A stretch of 64,000 nt of DNA from Prevotella sp. (GTDB lineage: Bacteria > Bacteroidota > Bacteroidia > Bacteroidales > Bacteroidaceae): positions 1 through 64,000 of the forward strand of contig JALFOF010000105.1 in NCBI GenBank assembly GCA_022773825.1. The letters run 5' to 3'. Every line of letters starts with the position of its first letter. The first letter of the stretch is position 1. Under the pieces are notes generated by a model. That model saw only the letters and a program-made list of their open reading frames with translations. It searched no databases and was not told the DNA's origin. Of this stretch, positions 2,953-62,103 are shown one piece after another. The translations under genes were made by a program, and so were the position numbers.

Positions 2953-2955
2953 TAT

Positions 2956-3125
2956 AGTTGTTTAGTTGTTTGGGGGGTTGGTGCTTTAGTTGTTTAGTGG
3001 TTTAGTCGTTTAGTGGTTTAGTCGTTTAGTTGTTTGGATGGCTTCGTGGTTTTCTGTTGTTTAGGCGGCTTGGTCACTTATCTACATTTAACTAAACAAC
3101 TAAAAAACTAAACAACTAAACAACC
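2956..3125. repeat. Octamer inverted-repeat array 1
   Basis: (TTTRGTYG)n left arm, core GGTCACTTATCTACATTTAACT, right arm (AAACAACT)n; lies between aroB and dacB. Confidence 0.85.
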
Positions 3126-6219: not shown

Positions 6220-6306
6220 GCAATAGCTATGTGATTGTCTGGTAATCGCTATGCTTTTACCATGCAATAGCTATGCTTTTACTTTGCAATAGCTATGCTT
6301 TTGCGA
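6220..6306. repeat. 22-bp-period repeat array (family B), about 4 copies
   Basis: CAATAGCTATGYGATT / TAATCGCTATGCTTTTACCATG / CAATAGCTATGCTTTTACTTTG / CAATAGCTATGCTTTTGCGACA. Confidence 0.85.
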
Positions 6307-14834: not shown

Positions 14835-15084
14835 TGCCTGTCTTTTCTTCTTAAATATCCCTGCGGTGCGTTATGCCCGCCATTCCCGCGCACGCGCCAT
14901 GCGGGCATATTTCCACACTCTATAATAACGAGAATACTACGATAATATTGCACGCGCCACCGCTTTTTAACATAGCGCGTCTTTTCTACGCTGTGCTAAT
15001 GTCCCCACCTCTCTGACAACGAGAAAATGGTAAATTGCAGAAACTCGGTGAAAGCATAGAGACCGCGCCGTAAAAACGCTGCTT

Positions 15085-15150
15085 TCGCGATGCTATCTCT
15101 ATGCTTTTACGATGTAATATCAATGCTATTACACCGTAATCTGAACGGTA
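15085..15150. repeat. Degenerate family B 22-bp repeat array
   Basis: CTATCTCTATGCTTTTACGATGTAATATCAATGCTATTACACCGTAATCTG; a further degenerate half in opposite orientation (GAAAGCATAGAGACC) near 15050. Confidence 0.6.
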
Positions 15151-15257
15151 TTGTTTTGCTATAACGTAAAACCCTGATTACCAACACCATCCTATCAGCA
15201 ATACACAGGATGGCGGAAATGGTAAATTTCACCACGAAGCGCACGAGGCGTGGCGCA

Positions 15258-16124: not shown

Positions 16125-16130
16125 GGGGAG

Positions 16131-16411
16131 TTGTTTAGTGGTTTAGTGGTTTGGTGGTTTAGTTGAGTGGTTGTTTAGTGGTTTAGTGGTTTGGTATATT
16201 GGTTGAGTGGTTGTTTGGTTGTTTAGTGGTTTGGTTGTTTGGGTATTTGGTGGTTTAGCTGTTTGGTGGTTTGTTTTAGCGGTTTTACATTTAACCAAAC
16301 AACCAAATAACTAAACCACCAAACCACTCGCTCGACCTTTGGTCGCTTTGCTTGCAAAGAAACCACTAAACCACCAAATAACTAAACGACTAAACGACCA
16401 AACCACCAAAT
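16131..16411. repeat. Octamer inverted-repeat array 2
   Basis: TTTAGTGG/TTTGGTTG units, core TTTTACATTTAACC, CCAAACAACC/ACTAAACCACC units, with insert CTCGCTCGACCTTTGGTCGCTTTGCTTGC; runs into the MATE CDS 3' end. Confidence 0.9.
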
Positions 16412-17692
16412 AGCCTGCTGTGCCGCGCCGCGCATGAAGAGATAGGCGCAGAAAGCGAGCCAGAGGGCGTGGTTGCCGAGGGAGTGACAGAGAGCGAAGT
16501 ACACGCCGAAGAAGGCTGTAGCACCGCAGAAAGTGCCCCACAGCATGCCCTTGGTGTTGGTGATGCCAACGAAAACGCCGTCCCATACGAAGGCTGCCAC
16601 ACCGCAAAAGGGTATGGCTACCGCCCAAGGCAGATAGTCCATGGCGGCATGGCGTATCACAGTGTCGTCGGTAAGCAGACGCAGGAACGCCTCGCCGCCT
16701 ACGGCATACGCCACCGTGTAGCAGGCGGTGAGGGCGAGCCCCCAGCGCCACACGCCACGGAGGGCGAGGCGGAAACGGGCACCATCGCCTGCACCGTAGT
16801 AGCGGCCGCACAGTGCCTCGGCGGCGAAGGCGAAGCCGTCCATGACGTATGTGTAGAGTATGAAGAGCTGCATGAGCACCGAGTTGACGGCGAGGATGAC
16901 GGCACCTCCCTTGGCTCCCGCCACGATGAGGTAGAGGTTGACCGCCACAAGGAAGAGGGTGCGGTAGAAGAGTATGCGGTTTACGGAGAAAAAACGCTTC
17001 ATCTGCTCCATCCTCACGGCCCCCTTCAGGCGCACTCCACGCCACAGCGTGCCGTAACCGCGGCGCAGCATGGCGACAGCCATCAGGACACCGCACCACT
17101 GCGCCACGAGGGTGCCAAGGGCAACGCCTTCTATCTTCATGCCGAAGGCATAGACGAAAAGGCAGGAGAGGCAGATGTTGACAATGTTCTGCGTGATGGA
17201 TATGACCATGGGCAGCGTTGTGTTCTGCATACCCACGAACCATCCCGTGACGGCATAGAGCGCCAACGAGGGCAGAGTGCCCCATATACATATATTATAA
17301 TAGGTGTGTATGGCGGGAAGCAGGCGCGCCTCCGGCTCAATGAACCACACGGCAAGGCGGTAGAGGGGCTGCTGAAGAAGGAGCAACAGCGCCGCCATGG
17401 CAAAGCCAGTGAGCAGCGCGCGCAGCAATATGTGACAGCACTCCTGACTGCCTCGCGCCCCCGTGGCGGTTGACTCGCCGTAGCTCTGCGCCGTAAGACC
17501 GCCCGTACCGAAGCGCAGGAAGGCGAAAAGCCAGTAGATTATGTTGAATATCATGGAGCCGACAGCGATGGCTGCCATATAGAGGGCATCGCCCATGTGC
17601 CCCGTAATGGCAACATCCACCAAGCCAAGAAGCGGCACGGTGATGTTGGAAACTATGGAAGGCAGGGCCAAATGGAGGATTTTCTTGTTCAT
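16382..17692 (-). CDS. MATE family efflux transporter (DinF/NorM type)
   Basis: ORF extends to 17761, but the plausible start is MNKKILHLALPSIVSNITVPLLGLVDVAITGHMGDALYMAAIAVGSMIFN. The upstream 23 codons are repeat-derived. The C-terminus IWWFGRLVV is also encoded by repeat DNA. Confidence 0.93.
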   Translation of the reverse strand: MNKKILHLALPSIVSNITVPLLGLVDVAITGHMGDALYMAAIAVGSMIFNIIYWLFAFLRFGTGGLTAQSYGESTATGARGSQECCHILLRALLTGFAMAALLLLLQQPLYRLAVWFIEPEARLLPAIHTYYNICIWGTLPSLALYAVTGWFVGMQNTTLPMVISITQNIVNICLSCLFVYAFGMKIEGVALGTLVAQWCGVLMAVAMLRRGYGTLWRGVRLKGAVRMEQMKRFFSVNRILFYRTLFLVAVNLYLIVAGAKGGAVILAVNSVLMQLFILYTYVMDGFAFAAEALCGRYYGAGDGARFRLALRGVWRWGLALTACYTVAYAVGGEAFLRLLTDDTVIRHAAMDYLPWAVAIPFCGVAAFVWDGVFVGITNTKGMLWGTFCGATAFFGVYFALCHSLGNHALWLAFCAYLFMRGAAQQAIWWFGRLVV

Positions 17693-23240: not shown

Positions 23241-23262
23241 CGCAATCGCCATGCTTTTGCAA
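23241..23262. repeat. Single family B 22-bp repeat unit
   Basis: CGCAATCGCCATGCTTTTGCAA. Confidence 0.55.
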
Positions 23263-24827: not shown

Positions 24828-25049
24828 CGTTGTTTAGTTGTTTAGTTGTTTGGTTGTTTAGTTATTTAGTTGTTTGGTTATTGCCGTTGGCCGTTCGCAC
24901 GTTGTTACGCTTCTTGTTAAGGCAAGCGACCATAGGTCGAGCGGCCCTGGGCAAGAAGCGGCACAGCCGAGTGGTTTGATTGTTTGGTAGTTAGTGGTCT
25001 CCGCAATCAACCAAACAACTAAACAACCAAACAACTAAACAACCAAACT
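24828..25049. repeat. Octamer inverted-repeat array 5
   Basis: TTTAGTTG units on the left, CAACTAAA/CAACCAAA on the right, and a long GC-rich insert with GGCAAGCGACCATAGGTCGAGCGGCC. Confidence 0.85.
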
Positions 25050-25196: not shown

Positions 25197-26198
25197 ATGA
25201 AACGTCATATCCGCAAAATCCTCAACGTACTGCTGTCCATCTTCCTGGGCGGCGCGATACTGTACTGGATGTACCGCGGCTTTGACATCGACACGATGAA
25301 GAGCGTGCTGGAGCGCGACGTGAACTGGTGGTGGATGATTGCCTCTTTCCCTTTCGGCATACTGGCACAGATGTTCAGGGGCTGGCGTTGGAAGCAGGCA
25401 TTGGAGCCTCTTGGCGAGCAGCCCCGCACGAGTACGTGCATCAATGCCATCTTCATCTCCTACGCTGCATCACTCATTGTGCCGCGCATAGGCGAGTTCA
25501 CACGCTGCGGGGTGCTGGCGAAGAAGGAGGGAACGAGCTTCCCCAAGGCTTTGGGCACGGTGGTGACAGAGCGCGCGGTGGACTCGCTCATCATTCTGCT
25601 GATAACCATTGCGGTGCTGCTATTGCAGATGCCAATGTTCCTGTCCTTCTTTTCCAAGACGGGAACACGGCTCGACGACCTGACGCTACTGCTGGGCACA
25701 TTCTCCAAGGCGGGCTACATAGTGACGGCGGTATGCGGCATCGCCACGCTGGTATGCTTCTACATCTTCCGTAAGAAGTTAGCGTTCTACGACCGGATGA
25801 AGGCCACCGCCCGCGGACTGCGTGACGGAGTGCTGTCGCTGAGAAACGTGCGCAACGTGCCATTGTTCCTGTTTTACAGCATAGCAATATGGGTGGCATA
25901 CTTCCTCCACTACTACCTCACCTTCTTCTGCTTCGAGGCCACGTCGGGAATGAGCGTGACCTGCGCCTTGGTGACGTTCATAGTAGGCTCCATAGCCGTG
26001 CTGGTGCCCACGCCAAACGGTGCCGGCTCATGGCACTTCGCCGTGAAAACAATGCTGATACTGTACGGTGTGGCGGAGACACCGGCACTGTATTTCGTGC
26101 TCGTGGTACACAGCGTGCAGACGCTCCTCGTGGCTCTGCTCGGCATATACGGCTGGCTCATGGTGGCATTGGGAACGGAACGCTCCGTAAAAGCATAG
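25197..26198 (+). CDS. Lysylphosphatidylglycerol synthase TM-region / UPF0104 (flippase-like) membrane protein
   Basis: 333 aa, multi-TM; AASLIVPRIGEFTRCGVLAKKEGTSFPKALGTVVTERAVDSL, VPTPNGAGSWHFAVKTML. Confidence 0.9.
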   Translation: MKRHIRKILNVLLSIFLGGAILYWMYRGFDIDTMKSVLERDVNWWWMIASFPFGILAQMFRGWRWKQALEPLGEQPRTSTCINAIFISYAASLIVPRIGEFTRCGVLAKKEGTSFPKALGTVVTERAVDSLIILLITIAVLLLQMPMFLSFFSKTGTRLDDLTLLLGTFSKAGYIVTAVCGIATLVCFYIFRKKLAFYDRMKATARGLRDGVLSLRNVRNVPLFLFYSIAIWVAYFLHYYLTFFCFEATSGMSVTCALVTFIVGSIAVLVPTPNGAGSWHFAVKTMLILYGVAETPALYFVLVVHSVQTLLVALLGIYGWLMVALGTERSVKA

Positions 26199-26272
26199 CG
26201 ATTACACAGTAAAAGCATAGCGATTGCGCGGTAAAAGCATAGCGATTACAATGTAAAAGGATAGCGATTACT
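26187..26272. repeat. 22-bp-period repeat array (family B), 4 copies
   Basis: GTAAAAGCATAGCGATTACACAGTAAAAGCATAGCGATTGCGCGGTAAAAGCATAGCGATTACAATGTAAAAGGATAGCGATTAC. Confidence 0.95.
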
Positions 26273-28315: not shown

Positions 28316-28485
28316 TGTTGTTTAGTTGTTTAGTGGTTTGGTTGTTTAGTGGTTTAGTTGTTTAGTTAAATGTAGAGAAGTGACTAAACCAATATGCACC
28401 AAACAACTATCCACCAAACCACTAAACAACTAACTAAACAACTAAACAACCAAATAACAAAACAACTAAACAACTAAACAACCAA
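28316..28485. repeat. Octamer inverted-repeat array 6
   Basis: TTTAGTTG/TTTAGTGG arm, core TTAAATGTAGAGAAGTGACTAAACCAATATGCACC, CAACTAAA arm abutting the next start codon. Confidence 0.9.
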
Positions 28486-28486
28486 A

Positions 28487-34901: not shown

Positions 34902-35137
34902 ATTAGTGGTTTAGTTGGTTAGTGATTTAGTGGTTTAGTTGTTTGGTGGTTTGGTGGTTAGTGGTTAGTGGTTTAGTTAGTTAGTTGTTTAGTTATTTGG
35001 TTGTTTAGTTATTTGGTTGTTTGGTGCATATTGCTTTAGTCACTTCTCTACATTTAACTAAACAACCAAACAACTAAACAACCAAATAACCAAACCACCA
35101 AACAACCAAACCACCAAACAACCAAACCACTAATCAA
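34902..35137. repeat. Octamer inverted-repeat array 7
   Basis: TTTAGTTG/TTTGGTGG arm, core GGTGCATATTGCTTTAGTCACTTCTCTACATTTAA, CAACCAAA arm. Confidence 0.92.
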
Positions 35138-35141
35138 CTCT

Positions 35142-38060
<2,919 letters not shown>

Positions 38061-38146
38061 TTATTTAGTAGATTTCAATATAGTTGCAAGTCATTTATGT
38101 GCCTATATGCAGGGGGTCGCCACCAGGGGGATGCCCACCTGCCCTG

Positions 38147-38232
38147 CAATAGCATAGCGATTACTGTGTAAAAGCATAGAGATTGGTTAGTGAAAGCATA
38201 GCGATTACTGTGTAAAAGCATAGCGATTGGTT
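38147..38232. repeat. 22-bp-period repeat array (family B), 4 copies
   Basis: CAATAGCATAGCGATTACTGTGTAAAAGCATAGAGATTGGTTAGTGAAAGCATAGCGATTACTGTGTAAAAGCATAGCGATTGG. Confidence 0.92.
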
Positions 38233-40435: not shown

Positions 40436-40624
40436 GTGTTTGGTGGTTTAGTTATTTTGGTGGTTTAGTTGTTTGGTGGTTTGGTTGTTTAGTTGTTTGA
40501 AAGCATCACTGCGTGCCGAGCGGTTTAGTTATTCGCAAGCGAATCGGCAAAGCCGAGCGATTTGTAAGTGACTGAATTGCTACATATAACCAAACAACTA
40601 AACAACTAAACAACCAAACAACTA
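40436..40624. repeat. Octamer inverted-repeat array 8
   Basis: TTTAGTTG/TTTGGTGG arm, GC-rich insert CACTGCGTGCCGAGCGGTTT, core TGAATTGCTACATATAACC, CAACTAAA arm. Confidence 0.9.
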
Positions 40625-44332: not shown

Positions 44333-44400
44333 GTAATGGCTATGCTTTTGCATCCTTAAAGCATAGCTTTTGCATTGTAATCGCTATGCTTTTACAACGC
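44333..44400. repeat. Family B 22-bp repeats in both orientations
   Basis: TAATGGCTATGCTTTTGC...TTAAAGCATAGCTTTTGC...GTAATCGCTATGCTTTTAC. Confidence 0.8.
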
Positions 44401-47004: not shown

Positions 47005-47005
47005 G

Positions 47006-47138
47006 TGGTTGGTGGTTTGGTGGTTTAGTGTTTGGTGGTTTAGTTCTTGCCTGCGGCAAGCGGCAGAGCCGAGCGATTTAGTGGTTTAGCGCTCGTTACC
47101 ATTAACCAAACAACTAAACCACCAAACCACTAAACAAC
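47006..47138. repeat. Octamer inverted-repeat array 9
   Basis: TTTGGTGG/TTTAGTGG units, insert CTTGCCTGCGGCAAGCGGCAGAGCCGAGCG, CCATTAACC core, CAACTAAACCACC units. Confidence 0.85.
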
Positions 47139-47724: not shown

Positions 47725-47873
47725 AGTTGTTTAGTTGTTTAGTTGCTTAGTTGTTTAGTTGTTTGGTGGGTGGGTTGTTTGGTTGGTTAGTAGGGTGGTG
47801 GGTTGTAAATTGACGGAATTGCTACATATAACTAAACCACTAAACAACTAAACCACCAAACAACTAAACAACT
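47725..47873. repeat. Octamer inverted-repeat array 10
   Basis: TTTAGTTG units, core GGAATTGCTACATATAACT, CAACTAAACCACC units. Confidence 0.88.
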
Positions 47874-48420
47874 ACTCACTCGGCTTGAGGAACTGTCCGT
47901 ATAGGTAGCCCCCCACGCCTGCGGCGAGGATTATGTATATAGGGTTCACTCCGAGCAGCCATATCAGCATGGCGGAGGCGATGGGTATCCAGCAGTTCAT
48001 GAGGTTTATGCCTGCTCCCTTCGCCATATTCCATGTGGGAATGGCTATCAATGCCACCACGGCGGGGCGTATGCCGGCAAAGACTGCCGCCACCCACGGC
48101 ACGTCCTGGAAGCTCTGGAAGAACATGGCTATGGCGAGAATGATGAGCAATGACGGCATCGCCGTACCCAGCGTGGTCATCGCCGCCCCCTTTATACCCT
48201 GCAACCTGTAGCCTATGAAGACCGACAGGTTGATGGCAAAGACGCCAGGGCATGACTGCGCCACGGCTATCAGGTCCAAGAACATCGTCTTGTCTATCCA
48301 CTTGCGCCTGTCCACCACCTCGGCTTCTATGAGGGGTATCATGGCGTATCCGCCGCCGAGGGTGAATAGTCCTATGCGGAAGAAGGTAAGGAAAAGGTCT
48401 TTTATCATAGGCATTGCCAC
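47872..48420 (-). CDS. Chromate transporter family protein (short-chain CHR subunit)
   Basis: 182 aa; LFTLGGGYAMIPLIEAEVVDRRKWID, AQSCPGVFAINLSVFIGYRL. Confidence 0.92.
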   Translation of the reverse strand: MAMPMIKDLFLTFFRIGLFTLGGGYAMIPLIEAEVVDRRKWIDKTMFLDLIAVAQSCPGVFAINLSVFIGYRLQGIKGAAMTTLGTAMPSLLIILAIAMFFQSFQDVPWVAAVFAGIRPAVVALIAIPTWNMAKGAGINLMNCWIPIASAMLIWLLGVNPIYIILAAGVGGYLYGQFLKPSE

Positions 48421-52755: not shown

Positions 52756-52868
52756 CGCAATCGCTATGCTTTTACTCGGTAATCACTACGCTTTTGCATT
52801 GTAATCACTATGCTTTTGCATTGTAATAGCTATGCTTTTACATTGCAATAGCTATGCTTTCGTATTGT
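52756..52868. repeat. 22-bp-period repeat array (family B), 5 copies
   Basis: CAATCGCTATGCTTTTACTCGG/TAATCACTACGCTTTTGCATTG/TAATCACTATGCTTTTGCATTG/TAATAGCTATGCTTTTACATTG/CAATAGCTATGCTTTCGTATTG. Confidence 0.95.
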
Positions 52869-53041: not shown

Positions 53042-53122
53042 GCACGGCAAGGATGCCGTGCCTACATCTCTTCGCAAATCTTTTTCCGCCGACCATCGGT
53101 AGGCACGGCATCCCTGCCGTGC
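53042..53122. repeat. Nested inverted repeat
   Basis: GCACGGCAAGGATGCCGTGCCTAC / GTAGGCACGGCATCCCTGCCGTGC (24-bp arms, one mismatch); the left arm is itself a palindrome. Confidence 0.88.
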
Positions 53123-53214
53123 AACCGCCACATCGTGTGGGTTAACCATCGATGATGGGAATGGTTCCTTTCGCCCCTATACAGGGCTTTCCCTATATAT
53201 GCGCACCGTCCACG

Positions 53215-53236
53215 CCGTAATCGCTATGCTTTTGCG
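53215..53236. repeat. Single family B 22-bp repeat unit
   Basis: GTAATCGCTATGCTTTTGCGGC. Confidence 0.75.
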
Positions 53237-61294: not shown

Positions 61295-61446
61295 AAGCAA
61301 GCCTGGCAACACGGAGGCACGACCGAAAACGAACAGTAACATAACACATAAGCGCGCCACCCACATACCCACGGCAGACACGCCAAATGTTGACAAGTGA
61401 ATTAGTATAAACAATCAAAAACTGTCAAGCGATTTTAGGAAAAGAC

Positions 61447-61531
61447 AATAGCATAGCGATTACACTGCAATAGCATAGCGATTACAACACAATCGCATAG
61501 CGTTTACAGTGTAATCGCTATGCTTTTATCG
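61447..61531. repeat. 22-bp-period repeat array (family B), 3 direct copies plus 1 inverted
   Basis: AATAGCATAGCGATTACACTGC/AATAGCATAGCGATTACAACAC/AATCGCATAGCGTTTACAGTGT/AATCGCTATGCTTTTATCG. Confidence 0.92.
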
Positions 61532-61568
61532 CTGCACCACATACCGTCCGCAAAACAGACGGCACTCC

Positions 61569-61753
61569 AACCCAAAACTGACTGTACCCAAATCCAAAGC
61601 TGACCGCACCCAATTACAAAGCTGATTGCACTCAATTACAAAGCTGATTGCACCCAATTACAAAGCTGACAGCACCCAATTCCAAAGCTGATTGTACCTC
61701 ACACTAAAGCAGACAGCACTCTATCGAAGAGCCGTAACACTCTATCGAAGAGC
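61569..61753. repeat. 22-bp tandem repeat array (AATTACAAAGCTGATTGCACCC), 7-8 degenerating copies
   Basis: AAATCCAAAGCTGACCGCACCC/AATTACAAAGCTGATTGCACTC/AATTACAAAGCTGATTGCACCC/AATTACAAAGCTGACAGCACCC/AATTCCAAAGCTGATTGTACCT/CACACTAAAGCAGACAGCACTC/TATCGAAGAGCCGTAACACTC. Confidence 0.92.
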
Positions 61754-61818
61754 CCAGAATGGGCGACATAATACAGCACAGGGTGTAAACCCTGTGTATC
61801 GTGAGCCCCCCACCCCCT

Positions 61819-61969: not shown

Positions 61970-62103
61970 CGATTATTGCAGGGGTACACTTAGAGCCCCA
62001 CGGGTGATGGTGTTAATAGCCGTGCGTCTGGCCGCGCCGGTGGTTAGTGAATCCACTCCCGAAACAATGTTTTTTAGTAGTAATAAAATTATTAAAGTTA
62101 AGA
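61970..62103 (+). ncRNA. Candidate structured 5' leader of the rplM operon
   Basis: Long untranslated region with possible helices GGGG..CCCC (61981-61999) and GTGGTTAGTGAATCCAC (62040-62056). Confidence 0.4.

Follow-up and report, generated by a model that had tools for sequence, protein, structure and literature searches.

In the neisserial dRS3/NIME elements, short inverted-repeat units with a variable centre form intergenic arrays. The nearest described element to the repeat characterized here is BrickBuilt of Porphyromonas gingivalis, a minisatellite-MITE present in 19 copies with 1 to 22.8 direct 23-nt repeats and no spacer (Klein et al. 2015, PMC4596501). BrickBuilt is always intergenic, its full form consists of a leader, the tandem and a tail, it has IS5-like inverted ends (GAGACCTTTGCA), and some of its loci are common to strains and to P. 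gulae (PMC4596501). As far as the citations in that paper go, MITE464/PgRS has 41-nt repeats, and 22-nt repeats are mentioned there for P. gingivalis W83 without a location. REP/BIME elements with RAYT are made of GTAG- and CGTC-tagged repeats (PMC3733652). Operators of the Lrp family are 13-17 bp semi-palindromes in clusters, spaced two or three helical turns from centre to centre and bound by DNA-wrapping octamers (PMC2995911); RemA is another DNA-wrapping ring protein (PMC8481266).

We analysed a 64,000-nt stretch of Prevotella sp. DNA (the window), which is contig C86 of a 2.24 Mb assembly of 109 contigs that is 86.6% complete, and in which an earlier note had described a dispersed repeat with a 22-bp period. 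With records very close to the window excluded, the closest named relatives of the LPG-synthase gene beside one of the arrays are in Prevotella/Prevotellaceae metagenome assemblies (85% aa to RGIG8630 and SUG853, 80% to S34M_St_53), which fits Prevotella in the broad GTDB sense. The repeat is real and under-described: it is genus-specific, of fixed size and phased on a lattice, and at conserved loci sister species have different cores. Two outcomes had been named in the note as refuting it, identification as a known named repeat and absence of the periodicity elsewhere in the genome. Neither was met, as no description was found in the open-access papers searched (most subscription journals lay outside this scope) and the periodicity extends through the genome and the genus.

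Like BrickBuilt, the arrays are intergenic tandems of about 22/23 nt in Bacteroidales with shared loci, and in one genome (G012) they have a leader-tandem-tail organization. Unlike BrickBuilt, the Prevotella lattice is built as 19 + 3 bp, its units can be inverted in phase, their number is fixed at four, sister species have unlike cores at corresponding loci and the copy number is higher. A leader and a tail flank the arrays in G012, a composite flank accompanies part of the arrays in the sister species G415, and the window's genome (G000) has neither. IS5-like terminal inverted repeats were not recovered, the ends of the G012 element (CCCTGAATTATC / ACAAAATCAC) being different from those of BrickBuilt. 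Because the unit, the direct-only repeats in free number, the inverted ends and the copy number all differ, we do not claim membership in BrickBuilt. MITE464/PgRS, to the extent that it is covered by the source cited above, is alike in that its dispersed intergenic elements contain tandem repeats of comparable size and unlike in its 41-nt unit. The arrays may resemble dRS3/NIME in general form; sequence and spacing are different.

Structure of the repeat unit and of the arrays

The motif ATAGCGATTAC, with at most one mismatch, has 17 matches in the window versus 0.73 expected and a maximum of 3 in 100 shuffles. The genome-wide scan that had been proposed as a check, performed with AGCATAGCGATTAC and at most two mismatches, returned 596 matches (291 + 305) versus 10 (7 + 3) for the backward pattern. 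All positions given in the earlier note hold units when listed one by one, every listed array has the strict 22-bp period, and an independent call by Tandem Repeats Finder gives period 22 at 6244, 15080, 26187, 38151, 44332, 52759 and 61446. The unit as it had been proposed (AAAAGCATAGCGATTACNNNGT) is a repeat but only half of the structure. It is better parsed as GTAA-AAGCATAGCGA-TTAC followed by a 3-bp gap, that is, a 19-bp pseudo-palindrome GTAA-N11-TTAC plus 3 bp, and the variable 3 nt are the gap between pseudo-palindromes. Gaps of only 3 nt also bear out its exclusion of CRISPR, which requires spacers of at least 20 nt.

Because 3 bp separate the two halves at the core centre and likewise adjacent units, an array is a chain of 8-bp half-sites (GTAAnnnn) in alternating orientation, with 3-bp gaps at both dyads and one half-site per 11 bp. 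The gap letters are biased to A-N-T, which extends the palindrome to TTACA-N-TGTAA. Inverted units (at 44333, 61445 and many other places) keep the 22-bp phase, and the mixed arrays at the two named positions agree with the statement that copies occur in either orientation. The second dyad, the constant count of four units, the switch of core from species to species and a tandem at 61599-61727 go beyond what had been noted before.

On the minus strand of the window, the array at 6220..6304 has four CATAG-core units of which the first is degenerate, the array at 52757..52863, in the divergent intergene of purL and bipA, has five units, and single units lie at 23242..23260 and 53217..53235. Four-unit arrays on the plus strand are found at 26187..26271 (at the junction of an LPG-synthase-like gene and a TonB-receptor gene), at 38146..38230 and at 61445..61529, the last with its units oriented +++-. 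The degenerate array at 15048..15154, to which no strand is assigned, has mixed cores on the 22-bp lattice, and 44333..44395, likewise without an overall strand, holds three units oriented - + - on one lattice. The second 22-bp tandem, at 61599..61727 on the minus strand (unit GTAATTGGGTGCaatCAGC), has the core GGTGC as in the sister species and shares the lattice of the array at 61445.

A detector that used only the GTAA/TTAC frame and no core sequence found 51 arrays in 427 kb of G000 and 142 arrays in 1,079 kb of G415, with none in reversed or shuffled controls of either; at least one of the 51 (L032:8790) resembles an unrelated 22-bp minisatellite. The claim that copies are intergenic holds with a qualification: only 3 of the 51 arrays lie inside an ORF, and the array at 26187 supplies the TAG stop of the LPG-synthase-like gene (ORF 25197-26198). 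Arrays occur about once per 8 kb. Core-defined arrays of at least three units have exactly four units in 30 of 44 cases in G000 and 90 of 103 in G415, longer arrays are rare, isolated units are near the background of reversed DNA, and P. bivia arrays mostly have about four full units too. In G415 the half-sites differ by position, with AA-GG at about 61% of the outermost (1 and 8) and TC-AG at about 83% of their neighbours (2 and 7). Given the fixed count and the symmetric outer half-sites, the four-unit array is a module with defined, symmetric ends.

One G000 array (L043:9761-10262, contig C75) is expanded to 23 head-to-tail units versus the usual four. We considered it as a master locus and rejected this, the neighbours being large unannotated ORFs (1352, 524 and 702 aa), none of which looked like a small regulator gene.

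Substitutions at the junction between units

At the junction TTAC-N3-GTAA, pairs in which both partners had changed were depleted at positions 2/18 (3 observed versus 9.5 expected, p=0.005) and 3/17 (0 versus 5.7, p=0.001) in G000 and at positions 2/18 in G415 (8 versus 15.5, p=0.013). The signal is limited to inner junctions of core-defined arrays; a first test on loosely called arrays with their edges included gave none. Within units of G415, positions 2/18 were also depleted (28 versus 45), and the detection cut-off may contribute to this. Intact halves made up 40% and 31% at the outermost positions versus 58% and 65% at inner ones. A hairpin would favour a compensated pair, while a dimer that tolerates one bad half would produce depletion, so the pattern, as far as substitutions can tell, appears to favour a double-stranded protein site over a hairpin. 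The inference in the earlier note that the spacing would put protein sites on one DNA face gains support from the 11-bp dyads and the eight half-sites, and further from the junction depletion in two genomes, the weaker outermost halves and the lack of compensatory pairing; no binding protein has been shown.

The same data bear on the idea that the arrays are REP-like palindromes moved by RAYT (a Y1 transposase), or RNA hairpins that serve as terminators, which we regard as very improbable. It would account for pseudo-palindromes that are dispersed between genes in either orientation and share a conserved tetranucleotide, for the enrichment between convergent genes described below and for some mixed-orientation arrays that fold well (61445, z=-9.7), but arrays in direct orientation are hardly more foldable than their shuffles (26187, z about -1.6 to -1.9) and both-changed pairs are depleted, not enriched as compensatory pairing would have them. 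The Y1 transposase (PF01797) is absent from G000, G202, G186, G021, G213, G012, G100, G017 and others and present in several array-free genomes, with no association in the 40 genomes searched. REP/BIME elements are like the arrays in being short, dispersed and clustered intergenic pseudo-palindromes with a species-specific body and a conserved tetranucleotide (PMC3733652), and unlike them in that the Prevotella arrays have GTAA at both ends, a strict lattice and no hairpin selection. No Rfam match above the gathering score lies at the arrays, and REP/RAYT, CRISPR and known RNA families are not supported as their identity.

Distribution and core sequences

Prevotella are common in mouth, rumen, gut and vaginal communities. 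A two-junction frame pattern was matched in 41 of the 200 genomes sampled from the GTDB genus Prevotella, with up to 258 copies; most sampled genomes of the genus had no match, so that carriers are a minority of species. Named carriers are P. bivia DSM 20514, Hallella multisaccharivorax DSM 17128, Hoylesella loescheii, Segatella maculosa, Candidatus Prevotella equi and Prevotella sp. oral taxon 299. Outside the genus, no more than two matches per genome, the chance level, were seen in about 700 sampled genomes (188 from other genera of the family, about 245 from the rest of the order and about 297 from the rest of the phylum). The annotated phages that were scanned had no match, and among the annotated plasmids scanned only Prevotella sp. 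oral taxon 299 had one.

The core follows lineage. It is CATAG in the window's genome (GTAAAAGC-ATA-GCGATTAC) and GGTGC in the sister species, where the G415/G416 line has both GTAATCAG-GTG-CTGATTAC and GTAAAAGG-GTG-CTGATTAC. P. bivia has GTAAAA(GG, GA, CA) around TNA, and other cores are GTAATCGT in G613, AAGACCTACTA in G186 and GTAAAGGC in Hallella. Since the outgroups G417 and G612 have GTAAAAGC with an ATA/TAT centre in common with G000, the GGTGC core is, judged from these comparisons of sequence, the derived state in the G415/G416 line. In G001 a single module has four different cores in its four units and is present at two loci; one core per protein is therefore not universal.

Arrays at the same loci in sister species

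We aligned G000 and G415, which have about 80% nucleotide identity over much of the aligned sequence, by reciprocal best genes. Among 132 conserved neighbour pairs, all nine that have a G000 array also have a G415 array, six have a G415 array only and 117 have none (Fisher 2e-10); with intergenes over 200 bp only, co-occurrence remained significant (p=5e-5). Arrays in these orthologous intergenes have CATAG cores in G000 and GGTGC cores in G415, and their distances to conserved flanking blocks are often alike by eye, as for 38146..38230, whose orthologous intergene in G415 has a GGTGC-core array (L031:10869). The test is limited by the nine G000 arrays, and the length strata are only a partial control for repeated insertion into permissive intergenes.

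Individual loci of the window were also compared. The intergenic stretch that matches 15048..15154 holds an array in G415, the one that matches 44333..44395 holds a GGTGC-core array in G416, and the purL/bipA intergene (52757..52863) has arrays with other cores in G415 and G416. G417 has no array at this last locus or at the locus of 26187..26271. The G415 purL/bipA intergene (L202:16621-17838) also contains an additional open frame, about 200 aa long, that the window lacks.

In the window the TTACs at 61460, 61482, 61504, 61614, 61636 and 61658 are all multiples of 22 apart, so the tandem at 61599-61727, which reads GTAATTG-GGTGC-AATCAGC, is in phase with the CATAG array at 61445-61529. We take this shared lattice as no more than suggestive because agreement in phase alone has a chance of 1 in 22.

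Fixed loci with different cores are what would be expected if arrays evolved in concert by ectopic gene conversion, with unequal pairing on the 22-bp lattice and no trans-acting reader. Mixtures of old and new cores in register (L042:10294, L047:16067 and window 61445-61719) also fit, as does the sharing of spacers in G000 (0.18 within an array versus 0.088 between arrays), which indicates some local duplication of units. Nevertheless we consider conversion by itself improbable: within-array spacer sharing is not raised in G415 (0.089 versus 0.10), spacers are linked only weakly across modules (16 versus 9.4), the G000 and G415 cores are rather dissimilar for homologous pairing, and neither the exact four units nor the dependence between paired junction positions is explained.

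Flanking sequence and genomic placement

In G012 the arrays lie inside a non-coding leader-array-tail element of 372 bp with a constant leader and tail, found in 23 copies in the sampled stretches and always with both ends (for instance L052:8302-8673, within L051-L067), which reads CCCTGAATTATCTTTACATATACC ... TCTGACAAAATCAC with the 22-bp array in the middle. A longer autonomous form was sought in 18 sampled stretches, in which only intact elements of about 370 bp were present. In G415, 63 of 180 array sides have a related flank (TTAC at -14), often as a shared hairpin-plus-linker sequence, in which a dispersed hairpin, CGGACGCACCAAGGTGCGTCC, is followed by a linker and often stands directly beside the array (L203 and L207 are examples). 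G000 arrays share no extended flank and have only a weak bias within about 30 bp. Flanking repeats of at least 4 bp were found at 0 of 49 G000 arrays, and visual inspection showed no target-site duplication in G012. We rejected a transposition mechanism that duplicates 3 bp, in which the NNN would be the duplicated target; neighbouring spacers are not generally equal and there are no flanking duplications. Relative to intergenic length, arrays are enriched between convergent genes (14 versus 7.1 expected in G000, 43 versus 25.7 in G415) and rarer between divergent genes (5 versus 9.1 and 15 versus 23.1).

These flanks are evidence for regarding the arrays as passive mobile minisatellites, MITE-like or BrickBuilt-like, whose internal 22-bp tandem is amplified by borrowed transposases; the dialect of a genome would then be the subfamily amplified last, and the frame a need of the transposition or replication machinery. 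The G012 element with its invariable ends, the full or partial shared flank on about a third of G415 array sides, the four-core module copied at two G001 loci and the avoidance of divergent intergenes all agree with this. We nonetheless hold it rather unlikely, as G000 and G415 have different cores in the same intergenes, G000 arrays have neither target-site duplication nor shared flank beyond the weak bias, and a fixed count of four, symmetric ends and epistasis at the junction are unexpected of passive tandem repeats. Even if passive, the arrays would be an extreme example of a bacterial repeat that evolves in concert.

A putative protein reader

We lean, without strong confidence, towards another reading of the observed lattice, fixed size, junction selection signature, module copying and orthologous loci with different cores, namely that the arrays are modular docking strips for an oligomeric sequence-specific protein that is as yet unidentified. 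Inferred here are the protein itself, how it oligomerizes and what it does, be it to shape the chromosome on a large scale or to insulate adjacent transcription units. Eight 8-bp half-sites one helical turn apart would accommodate four dimers on four 22-bp units (88 bp, eight turns), and the reader could be dimeric, with four dimers that cooperate, or octameric, as a tetramer of dimers. The four-unit module would be dispersed through intergenic DNA within non-coding mobile composites and preferentially retained near the ends of genes and where genes converge. The motif centre may drift by lineage, probably with the protein, which would give one dialect per genome in nearly all arrays, with old loci converted in place to the new core. 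Placement is compatible with a presumed role in architecture or insulation; the avoidance of divergent intergenes makes direct control of promoters a poorer fit. Against a docking function, copying as composites could explain much of the data without any role for the host.

Arrays of four semi-palindromic sites two turns apart meet the description of operators for Lrp/AsnC octamers, which have four dimers per octamer (PMC2995911), although there are no binding data and, unlike such operators, the Prevotella arrays occur in hundreds of copies per genome. Two conserved Lrp/AsnC orthologs were examined as the reader and rejected: both are present alike in array-bearing and array-free genomes, and their DNA-recognition helices, SRAA[VI]HQRV and SGAAIHQRIQKL, are unchanged across dialects and in array-free species in nearly all members examined. 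As these orthologs track neither dialect nor array presence, the reader remains unidentified.

A wider proposal, which is possible but which we can put forward only tentatively, is chromosome-wide addressing, in which hundreds of strips with a fixed size of eight half-sites would be read by one fast-evolving oligomeric protein, would nearly all follow shifts of its specificity in place and would have a role in chromosome folding or insulation; this would be a bacterial parallel to the co-evolution of satellites with centromere proteins or of uptake-sequence dialects. If a protein does read the strips, the chromosome of Prevotella would be densely set with sequence-specific binding sites, a system overlooked so far, and the change of core at conserved loci of sister species would be a natural experiment on hundreds of dispersed sites co-evolving with one reader. 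The cultured carriers P. bivia DSM 20514 and Hallella multisaccharivorax DSM 17128 make the arrays testable.

Other repeats and RNA features of the window

An 8-bp repeat family, GTTGTTTA / TAAACAAC, probably the one that the earlier note counted as its first, occurs as pairs of facing arrays, which would fold into long intergenic hairpins, at 2955-3124, 16129-16412, 24829-25048, 28317-28486, 34903-35138, 40438-40624, 47005-47135 and 47725-47874. Palindromes of the form GGCACGGCATCC..GCCGTGCC at 53045-53133 are another dispersed repeat, also found beside the LPG-synthase gene of L083. Elsewhere in the window Rfam matches an Acido-Lenti-1 RNA at 61751-61796 on the minus strand (47.5 bits, cut-off 37) and an L13-Bacteroidia ribosomal protein leader at 61981-62053 on the plus strand (59 bits, cut-off 38).
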